From the NCBI GenBank assembly GCA_015709315.1, contig JACCQI010000018.1, forward strand, positions 1-62,472: DNA of 62,472 nt, in the 5' to 3' direction. Numbering within the stretch: the first letter of the stretch is position 1; each line of letters opens with the position of its first letter. Positions 40,271 through 44,219 of this stretch are shown here, piece after piece. Origin of the DNA: Desulfovibrionaceae bacterium. GTDB lineage: Bacteria; Desulfobacterota; Desulfovibrionia; Desulfovibrionales; Desulfovibrionaceae. The notes beneath the pieces are model-generated. The model did no database searches. It was not told where the DNA came from and saw only the letters and a list, made by a program, of their open reading frames with translations. Position numbers and translations under genes: made by a program.

Positions 40271-40681
40271 ATGAAGAAATCTTTGCTCATCAGCCTGATG
40301 GTTGCCGCTCTGGTGTGCGTCTTCGCGCTGCCCACCGTGTTCGCCGGTCCCGCAGCCCCGGACGTTATCACCATGTCGGTTCCCGAAGGCGTCAAAGCGA
40401 CCAAGACACCCGTGACGCTGTCTCACAAGAAGCACGAAGCCGAGTACGGCATCGACTGTCTGGTCTGTCACCACAAGGCCACGTCCAAGGACGACATCAA
40501 GGGCTGTGCTTCCGAAGGCTGCCACACCGATGCCTCCAAGGCCGCCAAGAAGGACCCCAAGGGCTTCTACAAGGCTTTCCATGCCAAGGCTGACGCCTCT
40601 TGCCTGGGTTGCCACAAGAAGGAAAAGAAAGCCGGCAAGGCCGCTCCCGTGAGCTGCAAGGACTGCCACCCCAAGAAGTAA
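40271..40681 (+). CDS. Periplasmic tetraheme cytochrome c3 (class III)
   Basis: This 136-residue precursor has a Sec signal peptide of about 25 residues ending PTVFA and a mature chain of about 111. Four heme-binding motifs are present: CLVCH, CASEGCH, CLGCH and CKDCH, plus additional His ligands. Type I cytochrome c3 takes electrons from periplasmic hydrogenases and formate dehydrogenases and passes them to membrane complexes. The fourth motif is CxxCH here, while D. vulgaris c3 uses CxxxxCH. The mature chain is Lys-rich, as expected for docking. A strong ribosome site (AGGAGGAACTAGGTAA) and its own terminator suggest high expression. Confidence 0.95.
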   Translation: MKKSLLISLMVAALVCVFALPTVFAGPAAPDVITMSVPEGVKATKTPVTLSHKKHEAEYGIDCLVCHHKATSKDDIKGCASEGCHTDASKAAKKDPKGFYKAFHAKADASCLGCHKKEKKAGKAAPVSCKDCHPKK

Positions 40682-40699
40682 GACGCTAGGGTAATTCGA

Positions 40700-40726
40700 G
40701 GGGGCTGCCAGACAGCCCCCTTTTTT
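40700..40726 (+). terminator. Terminator of cytochrome c3
   Basis: The stem GGGGGCTG (40700-40707) pairs with CAGCCCCC (40713-40720) across a five-base loop and is followed by six T. Confidence 0.88.
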
Positions 40727-40750
40727 CCAACCTTCCTCCCGGAGGTAATT

Positions 40751-41899
40751 ATGACCCCGGCCCCCCCGCCTCCCACCGACGAAAAGATCGATGTAAGCGA
40801 TATGCTGAACGAACCCACCGATAGAGACGCTCTGGACCCGGATTCCGTGGATGCGGATTTCGAGCAGGAGCTGGAGGATCTCTTTTCCGACGATCTCGAA
40901 GACGACACCCGCGATCCCGCCGGTGACGACGAGCCCGTGGTGCTCGACGACGAGATCGACGAGGCGGGTGACGAGCCCATCTCGCTTGACGACATGGCCG
41001 ACGAGGCCGACGACGATCTGATCGTGCTCGACGACATGGTCGAGGAGCCTGCGGCCGCTTCCGGCGCCGAGGACGTCGAGGCGCTGGTGGAGGATATCGC
41101 CGAGGAACCGGCGGACGAGCCCGAGGAGGAAGAGGAGGAGATCATCGAGCTGGACGACCTGGTCGAGGAGGCCGAGGCCGACGAACCGGCCGATGACGAG
41201 GACATCGTGGTCCTGGATGACATGCTGGAGGAGGAAGCCCCCGAGCCGGAGGCCGAACCCGAAGAAGAAATTTCCCTCGAACCCGAGGACATGATGGATG
41301 CCGCCCTGGCCGAGGAACCCGCGCCGGAAGTGCCGGTGGACGAGGCCGTTCCCGATGCGGTCATCGACGACATCCTCGACGAGCCGGAATCCGGGCTTGC
41401 CGACGAACCCATTGATCTCGCCGACCTGGATGAACCCGCCGAAGAGGCCGATGCCCTGGATTCCGAACTGACCGGCCTGGACGAGCTGGACGAGCTGGAC
41501 GAGGAAGACATGGACGACGTGGACAGCCTCCTGGACAACGTGGAGGTGGACGTGTCCGACGTGGTGGACGCCGAGGAGGCCGAAGCCGAGGACATGGAAA
41601 TTCCGGAAGTGGGCGCGGATGAATCCATCGGCGACATGCTGGCCGCCGAGGCCATGCCGCCCGACGCCGGTGTGGACGTGTCCGACGACGTGGACGTGGA
41701 CCAGCTTTTGGTGGAGGTCCGTTCCGAGACAGAGGCGTCCAGCGTGGCCGAGCTTCAGGGCAAGATCGCACTGCTCGAGTCCCGGGTGGAGGACCTGGAG
41801 AAGCGGCTGCGCGACGAGATCGCCCATCTGGTGCCCGCCGAAGCCGCCCGCATCATCCGGGAGGAGATCGCCGCCCTGGCGGCGGAACTCGACGATTAG
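40751..41899 (+). CDS. Highly acidic repetitive protein with C-terminal coiled coil
   Basis: This 382-residue protein has no signal peptide, membrane helix or cysteine motif. By eye well over a third of the residues are Asp or Glu. From about residue 57 to 165 a short motif recurs at least five times: VVLDDEIDEA, ISLDDMADEA, IVLDDMVEEP, IELDDLVEEA and VVLDDMLEEE. Similar but more degenerate units continue to about 300. Residues ~325-382 form a conventional coiled coil (AELQGKIALLESRVEDLEKRL). A GGAGG lies seven bases before the ATG. It follows the cytochrome c3 terminator and has its own terminator. I know no named family; a scaffold or multivalent binding protein in the cytoplasm is inference. 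Confidence 0.8.
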   Translation: MTPAPPPPTDEKIDVSDMLNEPTDRDALDPDSVDADFEQELEDLFSDDLEDDTRDPAGDDEPVVLDDEIDEAGDEPISLDDMADEADDDLIVLDDMVEEPAAASGAEDVEALVEDIAEEPADEPEEEEEEIIELDDLVEEAEADEPADDEDIVVLDDMLEEEAPEPEAEPEEEISLEPEDMMDAALAEEPAPEVPVDEAVPDAVIDDILDEPESGLADEPIDLADLDEPAEEADALDSELTGLDELDELDEEDMDDVDSLLDNVEVDVSDVVDAEEAEAEDMEIPEVGADESIGDMLAAEAMPPDAGVDVSDDVDVDQLLVEVRSETEASSVAELQGKIALLESRVEDLEKRLRDEIAHLVPAEAARIIREEIAALAAELDD

Positions 41900-41916: not shown

Positions 41917-41947
41917 GCCCGCCATGACAGCATGGCGGGCTTTTTTT
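41917..41947 (+). terminator. Terminator after the acidic protein gene
   Basis: GCCCGCCATG (41917-41926) pairs perfectly with CATGGCGGGC (41931-41940) across ACAG and is followed by seven T. On the other strand AAAA after the stem gives a weaker bidirectional signal for the convergent gene. Confidence 0.92.
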
Positions 41948-42899: not shown

Positions 42900-43442
42900 C
42901 TACTGGATGCCGAGAACGGAACAAAGCCTGGGCATGTTGGCCCTGATGATTTCCTGCTCGGAAAGAGGCACCTGCTTGTCCACTTCAGCCTGGAACGCCT
43001 CCATCTGGCCGCCGCCCTGCTTGGCGAGCATCTGCTTCATCATTTCCCGCTGGTCCTCGGGCATGTCCTTGAGTTGGGCCTGCATCTGCTCGTTGACCTT
43101 GTTCATTTGTTCCGCGCTGACCATGACCAGGGAGTGGCTGTATATGTACATGAACCGGTCGCTGTCCCAGCCCAGCGCCTCGACGGACGCGATGACCTTG
43201 GCGGTCAGGAACGCGCCGGAGGCTTCGCCGATCTGTTTCTGGGTCTCGGCGGTCAGGCCGGGAACCTTGGGCAGGTCGTCCAAAAACCGTTCGAATTCCG
43301 AGGCGGAGAACGGGCCGCCGACCTCCTCGACCACGGTTTTGCCCTCTTCGGACAGCGGGGCCTTGTCGGCGTCGTCGCCGCAACCGGCGAGCATGGTCAG
43401 GGCGGCGAGCATGAGAAGCAGGGAAAAGGCGAATCTGGGCAT
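42900..43442 (-). CDS. Hypothetical lipoprotein
   Basis: This 180-residue protein has a lipobox MLAGC (Cys21) and a helical, Gln/Met/Glu-rich mature part (NEQMQAQLKDMPEDQREMMKQML). ATG 43442 follows AAGGAGAACCC; a frame 23 codons longer was rejected. The helical periplasmic part could be a chaperone-like or sensor lipoprotein, but I recognise no family. The gene upstream, 100 bases away, encodes a second helical lipoprotein of similar size with related local pattern (SxxxLDRFL / ASEFERFLDDL). Confidence 0.8.
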   Translation of the reverse strand: MPRFAFSLLLMLAALTMLAGCGDDADKAPLSEEGKTVVEEVGGPFSASEFERFLDDLPKVPGLTAETQKQIGEASGAFLTAKVIASVEALGWDSDRFMYIYSHSLVMVSAEQMNKVNEQMQAQLKDMPEDQREMMKQMLAKQGGGQMEAFQAEVDKQVPLSEQEIIRANMPRLCSVLGIQ

Positions 43443-43542
43443 GGGTTCTCCTTGATGATGCTGGTTGGTACTCTTCATCCAGCCTATATTGGGTGGACGG
43501 GTTTTCGTCAACCGATGGCGAACCGGCAGCGGGGCGAGCGGG

Positions 43543-44067
43543 TCATGGCCGGAGCGCCGCGTTGTTTCCTCCGCCGAGGGTGTCCAGGTGCCTGGCCAGG
43601 AAGGCGCGTTCCGCGGCCGTGGTCCGGGATTCCAGCCGGGTGACCACGGTAAGCAGGCGGGCTTCCAGTTCCCGGACGCCGGATTGTATCCGGGCGCGGT
43701 CCTTCGGCCCGAGGGCGGTCCCGGCCCGCTCCGCCAGCTTGTCCGCCGAGTTCTCGAGCGTCTGCCGGGCCAGGGCCTTGCGGCAATAGCCCAGGATGTC
43801 GTTGAACCGCCCCAGGGTCCAGCCGAGGTCGCGGATGGCCTTTTCCCGCGCCCGCTTGAGGACGAGCCGTCCTTCCTCGCGGGTCATGGCGCCGCAGCGC
43901 TCGGCGGCCTTTTCCACGGCCTTGATGACGGCGCGGCTGTCCCGCAGAAAGCGGTCGAGTTCGGTCACGGAAACGGGTGGAGGCTGGTTTTTTTCGGGGA
44001 CGGCATCGCAGGCGGACGCCAAAAAAAGAGCCGCAACCAAAGATATGATGCACGCAAGGCGTTGCAT
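43543..44067 (-). CDS. Hypothetical lipoprotein, helical
   Basis: This 174-residue protein has a signal peptide with lipobox LASAC (Cys20) and an all-helical, Arg/Ala/Leu-rich mature part. VSVTELDRFLRDSRAVIKAVEK resembles the corresponding region of the neighbouring lipoprotein (FSASEFERFLDDL), and LGWTLGRFNDILGYCRKAL parallels ALGWDSDRFMYIYSHSLVM, so the two may be ancient duplicates (both given here as partial landmarks). ATG 44067 follows GGGAGGTATCC. Function unknown. Confidence 0.78.
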   Translation of the reverse strand: MQRLACIISLVAALFLASACDAVPEKNQPPPVSVTELDRFLRDSRAVIKAVEKAAERCGAMTREEGRLVLKRAREKAIRDLGWTLGRFNDILGYCRKALARQTLENSADKLAERAGTALGPKDRARIQSGVRELEARLLTVVTRLESRTTAAERAFLARHLDTLGGGNNAALRP

Positions 44068-44219
44068 GGATACCTCCCGGTCGGGCAGCACAGAGCGATT
44101 CATATATACGCATCCGCGACCGGGACGTCAACGGGCGCTTTTTCCCGTCCGGGGTTCAAATCCCGCGTGAAGTCATATACAGTCACCCTTCATCATTCCC
44201 GATCATGGAGAGAAAACCC

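Follow-up and report, generated by a model that had tools for sequence, protein, structure and literature searches.

A candidate PopZ-like scaffold protein of extreme acidity, encoded behind cytochrome c3 in Desulfovibrionales

The window analyzed here, a stretch of 62,472 nucleotides from a Desulfovibrionaceae bacterium, holds a gene whose product is likely, on the balance of the evidence below, to be a cytoplasmic, self-associating and multivalent PopZ-like scaffold; by analogy with known systems, this scaffold is probably polar. The protein belongs to a family made of conserved ends joined by a freely varying acidic middle. Its C-terminal helix is apparently related to the oligomerization region of PopZ, and to judge from profile comparisons the family looks like a new PopZ-like variant, a distant cousin rather than a formal PopZ.

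The Acidic Protein and Its Predicted Structure

The gene and the features around it are listed in Table 1. Its product is extremely acidic, as an earlier note on this DNA had stated, with 40.6% Asp plus Glu and a net charge of -144; it has 3 Lys, 8 Arg, a single His, and neither Cys nor Trp. The N-terminus (MTPAPPPPTDEK) is not signal-peptide-like, in contrast to that of the cytochrome c3 product (MKKSLLISLMVAALVCVFALPTVFAG), and the two proteins, belonging to different compartments, should not meet; on both points the earlier note is borne out. It had also reported at least five units of the form (I/V)xLDD(M/L/E)xxE, and exactly five occur, starting at residues 63, 77, 91, 132, and 153. The looser core [ILVM]xLDD[MLIVE] is likewise found five times in the middle region vs. 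0.17 expected, a number reached by 0/1000 composition-preserving shuffles of that region. The degenerate continuation that had been described can be followed by reading as acidic-hydrophobic segments up to about residue 320, and the announced coiled-coil end corresponds to a confidently predicted helix. Scans of the protein against Pfam and NCBIfam gave no credible family; a Pfam match to DUF1833 (E 0.05) was taken as noise.

Table 1. Features of the candidate scaffold gene and its immediate surroundings (positions in the window)
Feature	Coordinates	Strand	Basis and remarks
cycA, tetraheme cytochrome c3; neighbor, not regarded as belonging to the mechanism	40271..40681	+	Cytochrom_CIII 1.3e-20
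Terminator-type hairpin and U-run between cycA and scaffold gene	40698..40726	+	-22.5 kcal/mol, z -2.8
RBS-like GGAGG, 5 nt 5′ of the ATG	40741..40745	+	By reading
Candidate acidic scaffold CDS, 382 aa and stop	40751..41899	+	ATG start; ORF calls, orthologs
N-terminal motif A, degenerate, residues 10-21, DEKIDVSDMLNE vs. other families' consensus EEIIELTDIVEE	40778..40813	+	Alignments
Motif B, conserved N-terminal helix, residues 30-50, DADFEQELEDLFSDDL	40838..40900	+	Alignments and predicted helix
LDD unit 1, residues 63-71	40937..40963	+	Pattern match
LDD unit 2, residues 77-85	40979..41005	+	Pattern match
LDD unit 3, residues 91-99	41021..41047	+	Pattern match and PSSM
LDD unit 4 with flank, residues 129-140, EEIIELDDLVEE	41135..41170	+	Top match, 26.3 bits, to outside-family motif A
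LDD unit 5, residues 153-161	41207..41233	+	Pattern match and PSSM
C-terminal helix/coiled coil, residues 316-381	41696..41893	+	Structure prediction
Order-wide C-terminal motif, residues 361-377, VPAEAARIIREEIAALA; aligns with PopZ LPxLVERLVREEIERV	41831..41881	+	Profiles, hhalign

An AlphaFold run on the window protein with 10 relatives (pTM 0.20) places a single helix at the C-terminus, with block pLDDT of 84-93 across residues 331-380, and a second helix over motif B with pLDDT of about 75, while the blocks between the two helices have pLDDT of 35-64 and little order. The acidic middle is accordingly modeled as disordered, and both ends are predicted to be ordered. The model amounts to one long helix within a disordered chain, a shape that would match any coiled coil, and searches of the PDB with profiles of the two ends yielded no credible match.

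Conserved Ends and a Varying Middle Across the Order

Initial scans placed relatives in few genera only (17/149 genomes). The C-terminal profile A4 matches 309 of 348 Desulfovibrionales genomes, 57 of 59 genera and 234 of 246 high-quality genomes, with one match per genome save in G067 and G206, so that the gene is essentially single-copy; the N-terminal profile A2 matches 122 of the 348 genomes, one of these matches (G237) being spurious, and a search of the source genome with profile A1 gave the window gene as its single significant match. The gene is kept in very small genomes too (1.4-1.7 Mb). Because most Desulfovibrionales genomes have it, even small ones, a core cell-organizing role fits better than a respiratory one.

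Regions were retrieved at 40 and then 18 loci of the order, with 15 more around matches of two phylum searches. The family has a conserved N-terminal end, EEIIELTDIVEEG, and a conserved C-terminal end, VPxAAARIIREEIAAL. Near the end, AAx[IV][IL]R[ED]E[ILM] is found in 52/52 proteins, preceded by Pro in 41 of them; the same 52 proteins range from 254 to 1153 aa in total length, and their middle regions have a median net charge per residue of -0.24. In alignment A6, identity to the window protein is 0.54 at residues 31-50 and 351-382 and 0.17-0.25 elsewhere. Among the regions retrieved, order members from families other than f1 have the N-terminus EEIIELTDVVEEG or one near it, here called motif A, with the consensus EEIIELTD(I/V)(V/I)EEG; the window protein's own N-terminal copy scores merely 5.4 on the weight matrix (PSSM) described below. 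The conserved N-terminal block (motif B) and the terminator-type hairpin had both been overlooked by the earlier note.

That note had proposed to check whether the LDD units and the coiled coil are conserved among homologs while the spacers vary. The C-terminal helix motif is conserved throughout and the middle does vary, but the core [ILVM]xLDD is absent from the middle in 17 of 38 proteins, so that LDD units are not general. Against its idea it had held homologs without the repeats, or an acidic region varying freely like a simple low-complexity linker; the 17 proteins lack the core and the acidic part varies freely, yet this part is not a simple linker because the ends that flank it stay conserved.

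Several exclusions define these counts. L021 (same genome as L007) and L111/G237 (a spurious N-terminal match, in a 2128-aa frame) were left out, and L110, with its C-terminus out of frame, and L112, with a sequence gap, were excluded from the C-terminal sets and the motif count. Profiles A3 and A4 lack L086, L087, L093, L108, and L109, which the pattern missed, and near-duplicates were left out by hand (A1 21/25 rows, A2 15/25, A3 31/35, A4 31/33, A5 and A9 9/11). The start finder skipped L075, L101, and L182 and set the start of L087 too far downstream, which kept that protein out of A6, yet not out of the 52-protein set; L178 is nearly identical to L176. Coiled-coil matches of family members were taken as noise.

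The Repeat Units as Probable Copies of Motif A

A weight matrix for motif A, built solely from proteins outside family f1, finds four sites in the middle region of the window protein vs. 0.19 expected, a number reached by 0/100 shuffles. Because of the matrix match at residues 129-140 and this excess of sites, the LDD units are best read as reiterated motif A, seemingly multiplied in certain lineages; the matrix gives low scores to units 1 and 2 (-0.3 and 3.6). At least two motif A sites are carried by only 9 of 39 f1 middle regions, which at most 1/100 shuffles equal, so the reiteration is lineage-specific.

Repeats of another form, DxDxLL, are seen in the acidic middle of some members (eight in G132 and G287, four in G038 and G085), in which LDD cores number none or one, and by reading in the g40 proteins L118-L125 too.

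Relatives Outside the Order and the valS Locus

Profile A3 matches 11 genomes from other Desulfobacterota families (E 0.001-0.01), aligning on motif A alone. Outside the stretch matched by A3, the 11 proteins also share an acidic middle and a related C-terminal helix; eight of them end in LPG[ILV][IV]EKVIREEI, and L142, L139, and L137 are more divergent. All nine of these relatives that were retrieved with their flanks (9/9) lie directly upstream of valS, and no cycA match was found in the retrieved regions. A C-terminal profile of the outside proteins, A9, matches 136 of 345 phylum genomes and 86 of 225 genera, matches near the limit being weak and possibly including false ones. At the A9 loci retrieved, valS is directly downstream in 23/30, a count in which L212 is scored as non-valS-adjacent because the wrong ORF was taken; no valS match was found in the retrieved stretch for L200, L204, L205, L218, L219, and L221. 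Motif A is present by pattern in 18 of the 30 loci, and reading adds divergent copies (L204, L206, L209, L214, and others).

In the 345-genome phylum sample, A9 matched 0/14 Desulfovibrionaceae, and A4 matched the 14 Desulfovibrionaceae and two weak others (G534 and G651), the match in G534 not lying at that genome's A9 place. Because A4 and A9 do not cross-find, the link between the order and the valS-adjacent family rests on profile-profile alignment together with motif A. No homolog lies upstream of the source genome's own valS.

Comparison of the C-Terminal Helix with PopZ

When the valS-adjacent set was searched with E up to 10, the commonest Pfam family was DUF2497 (PopZ), in 9/11 proteins (best 0.013, below cut-off), followed by CRM1_C in 3/11; the commonest NCBIfam family was PopZ_fam, in 4/11 (best 0.052, below cut-off). 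Alignment of the C-termini with hhalign scored 32.7 for the valS-adjacent set vs. PopZ, 33.5 for Desulfovibrionales vs. the valS-adjacent set, and 22.6 for Desulfovibrionales vs. PopZ, the PopZ profile resting on four sequences. None of 150 column shuffles reached any of these scores (maxima 15.5, 20.4, and 16.6, respectively), and 81 alignment windows of ValS and HemL, serving as a real-protein control, gave at most 12.1 vs. PopZ, 12.3 vs. Desulfovibrionales and 19.0 vs. the valS-adjacent set. The hhalign probability is 92% for each step via the valS-adjacent set; an earlier comparison of A4 with A5 had given 88.9. Because the direct probability between Desulfovibrionales and PopZ is just 57%, the window protein's link to PopZ rests on the intermediates.

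Motif A has a counterpart in PopZ. The Caulobacter PopZ sequence, of which residues 1-134 were checked against PDB 6XRY, reads DDEVLELTD at residues 50-58, as confirmed in that entry; a Sphingomonas DUF2497 protein has EVLELSD, and those of Shinella and Sinorhizobium (L190 and L191) have no clear ELTD motif. In one Shinella and two Sinorhizobium records, valS directly follows the DUF2497 gene; it is annotated as valine--tRNA ligase in one of the three and recognized by likeness in the other two. In Magnetospirillum and Caulobacter, popZ is reported to stand next to valS (PMC6414705), and PopZ is described as widespread among, or conserved across, Alphaproteobacteria (PMC6414705, PMC9512792).

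In the window protein, neither DUF2497 (PF10691) in Pfam nor PopZ_fam in NCBIfam is found over its curated cut-off; a search of the source genome for PF10691 gave none over cut-off, and the list of the 25 commonest families matched by 51 Desulfovibrionales members does not include PopZ. The PopZ N-terminal client helix (EEILxSIRRII) is absent from the window protein and the relatives compared. A PopZ-type trait is present, namely an acidic, predicted-disordered region of variable length between conserved ends. The protein is not placed in formal PopZ because it has no DUF2497 match, no PopZ N-terminal helix and a different neighbor. Literature combining PopZ with Desulfovibrio polarity, deltaproteobacteria, Geobacter, or Desulfobacterota reports no such homolog in the portions available.

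A candidate partner of the ZitP type is encoded in the same genome (L226:619-1881; G000:C81, near 64546), where a zinc ribbon, a TM-like segment and DUF3426 make up the ZitP architecture (PF13719 7.4e-11, PF11906 1.2e-14). A long acidic linker containing DLF/LFxDE segments is also part of this protein. In Caulobacter, ZitP is reported to bind PopZ (PMC5182065). Because MJ0042 zinc ribbons are near-universal (103/109 genomes of the family), the ZitP-type protein is consistent with, not specific support for, a PopZ-like scaffold; zinc-ribbon proteins are common and this one may be unrelated to it. The same study describes the zinc finger of Myxococcus AgmX as not polar in Caulobacter (PMC5182065).

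The Cytochrome c3 Neighborhood

The gene order hemL-(cbiG-cobJ)-cycA-scaffold recurs across Desulfovibrionales. A cycA match is present in 53 of the 58 loci examined in the order, no more than 100 nt separate cycA from the first in-frame ATG in 44 of these 53, and the conservation of the neighboring gene, which the earlier note had proposed to check, is thereby confirmed. Inside the gap, a hairpin followed by a T-rich stretch is seen, by the analysis's own criteria, in 42/53 loci. Five loci keep the scaffold gene with no cycA match (L092, L176, L177, L178, and L182), divergent cytochromes having possibly been missed. The window's downstream APH-type kinase recurs in 2/40 regions and its aminotransferase in 3/40, all from same-genus relatives.

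In the window, about 24 nt separate the U-run from the scaffold ATG, a spacing that would leave no room for a separate sigma-70 promoter 3′ of the terminator. A general terminator scan does not include the hairpin among the sites it lists, and matches in an Rfam search were all sub-threshold. The position behind cytochrome c3 most likely supplies expression, via terminator read-through from a strong gene, and not joint function; a role together with cytochrome c3 is unsupported. The usual gap of about 60-85 nt with a hairpin, seen order-wide, is a possible conserved read-through arrangement.

Other observations concern the surroundings. A stretch elsewhere in the same genome (G000:C71:23632-23715; L002) shares 75% identity with the 3′ portion of the cytochrome c3 gene and may belong to a paralog. 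On the 3′ side of the scaffold gene, a terminator-like hairpin is listed on the minus strand at 41917-41940; with a T-run on the plus strand as well, it may work in both directions between convergent genes. Two minus-strand genes (42900-43511 and 43543-44103) encode small proteins with lipoprotein-like N-termini and no Pfam or NCBIfam match over cut-off. A literature search for DVU3172, presumably the D. vulgaris gene adjoining cytochrome c3, found no paper.

Alternative Explanations

The earlier note had offered three functions, of which only the docking scaffold has gained support (conserved ends, a helix apparently related to that of PopZ, probable motif copies). A metal buffer agrees poorly with a protein that has no Cys, one His, and no metal-site family match in Pfam or NCBIfam; nothing positive speaks for a nucleic-acid mimic, and the several-fold variation in length is set against it. 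The adjacency of the gene to cycA throughout the order, the frequent presence of hemL, cbiG, and cobJ before it and the opposite charges of the two products would suit a protein that serves cytochrome c3, e.g., by acting as a holdase that keeps the basic apo-cytochrome in the cytoplasm until it is exported, or by helping with heme supply. This is nevertheless very improbable: the products are separated by compartment, most loci have a terminator-type hairpin between the genes, the nine outside relatives stand by valS with no cycA match there, five loci of the order keep the scaffold without one, and the gene is retained in very small genomes.

The likeness to PopZ could itself be deceptive: the protein might have no kinship with PopZ and be a disordered acidic scaffold or a reservoir of charge, generic amphipathic and acidic sequences having converged on a similar helix and ELTD motif. 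The two modules are short and compositionally simple, every curated PopZ model stayed below its cut-off in the members that were tested, and genome searches with A4 or A9 do not reach the group of the other profile; however, the hhalign scores stand clear of the shuffled and real-protein controls, the two modules follow each other in the same arrangement along the proteins, and the intermediates share the valS neighbor with alphaproteobacterial popZ, which makes convergence rather unlikely. The first strong idea had been a relative of the Myxococcus polarity protein RomR that lacks the receiver and acts with an MglA/MglB-type GTPase module. RomR, compared here by its published description, has a receiver, an unstructured clade-specific linker and a conserved helical Glu-rich C-terminus, linker and C-terminus each sufficing for polar targeting (PMC3441718). 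A receiver-like N-terminus with motif A and the C-terminal helix occurs in L142/L154 and L208 (weak family matches) and L207 (by reading), but the receiver matches are weak (Pfam 2.7e-4 for L208 and 0.084 for L154, both below cut-off) and none was found in L205, L206, L211, L216, and L217. The window protein has neither receiver nor Trp, whereas the C-terminus of RomR is described with an invariant Trp and Pro (PMC3441718). The idea was lowered, and now appears improbable, because no Roadblock protein (MglB/MglC) is over cut-off in the source genome, where five matches are sub-threshold (best E 0.11). The valS-adjacent relatives with a weak receiver-like domain before motif A (L142/L154, L207, and L208) show the RomR arrangement and could join PopZ and RomR.

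Proposed Mechanism and Meaning

In a PopZ-like scaffold, the C-terminal helix would oligomerize the protein, and the N-terminal block and the repeated motif A would dock several clients simultaneously, candidates being proteins that segregate chromosomes and the ZitP-type membrane protein with a zinc ribbon encoded in the same genome. The charged middle of PopZ is reported to keep its assembly open and fluid (PMC9512792), and by analogy the repulsive acidic middle of the window protein might set the openness and fluidity of its assembly. To extrapolate from PopZ, and from RomR, the assembly would gather at the cell pole.

A broader history can be put forward tentatively, with more doubt than conviction: one ancient pole-scaffold gene upstream of valS, older than the split of Pseudomonadota and Desulfobacterota, might have given rise to PopZ, to the receiver-bearing RomR-like proteins and to the acidic family, which in Desulfovibrionales would have moved behind cytochrome c3, turned extremely acidic and, in some genera, arrayed its ELTD docking motif, and would be a core pole organizer unnamed so far. 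If the PopZ-like reading is right, a known locus gives sulfate reducers and much of their phylum a candidate pole organizer, estimates of how old and how widespread PopZ is must change, and one could test for a possible shared origin with RomR. As a natural series the family would also suit condensate work, since its ends are constant and its middles differ several-fold in both length and charge, with zero to six copies of the motif.

Comparison with Known Systems

The polar landmark proteins HubP and FimV have an acidic, repeat-bearing cytoplasmic region and are membrane-anchored with LysM. The window protein resembles them in such a region, the polar function being that of HubP/FimV; it has no LysM or FimV C-terminal domain in Pfam and NCBIfam and, by reading, no hydrophobic or TM-like segment. 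RomR (Myxococcus, Bdellovibrio, and Geobacter) is like the family in its disordered linker and its conserved, helical, Glu-rich, pole-targeting C-terminus, and unlike the window protein in its receiver and invariant Trp and in its MglB/MglC-type partner, which was not found over cut-off in the window's genome.

The closer comparisons are with the valS-adjacent family and with PopZ. The valS-adjacent Desulfobacterota family, which is unnamed (L134-L147 and L192-L221), has motif A, an acidic middle and a C-terminal helix like the window protein, with one match in most genomes that have a match; unlike the window gene, it lies upstream of valS, shows no LDD arrays in the members read, and in some members has a receiver-like N-terminus. 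PopZ/DUF2497 (PF10691, NF052660) resembles the family in its acidic disordered middle of clade-specific length, in a C-terminal helical region ending in a PxxxxRxVREEI-type motif and, in Caulobacter and Sphingomonas, in an ELTD motif near the N-terminus, and it shares with the intermediates the valS neighbor. The window protein differs from PopZ in its lack of a DUF2497 match, its other N-terminal helix and its reiterated motif, and its gene stands behind cytochrome c3, unlike popZ next to valS, the usual context of popZ and not a strict criterion. Its middle is the more acidic of the two, at -0.45 net charge per residue against a published -0.28 for the PopZ IDR, and is less Pro-rich (8%) than that region.
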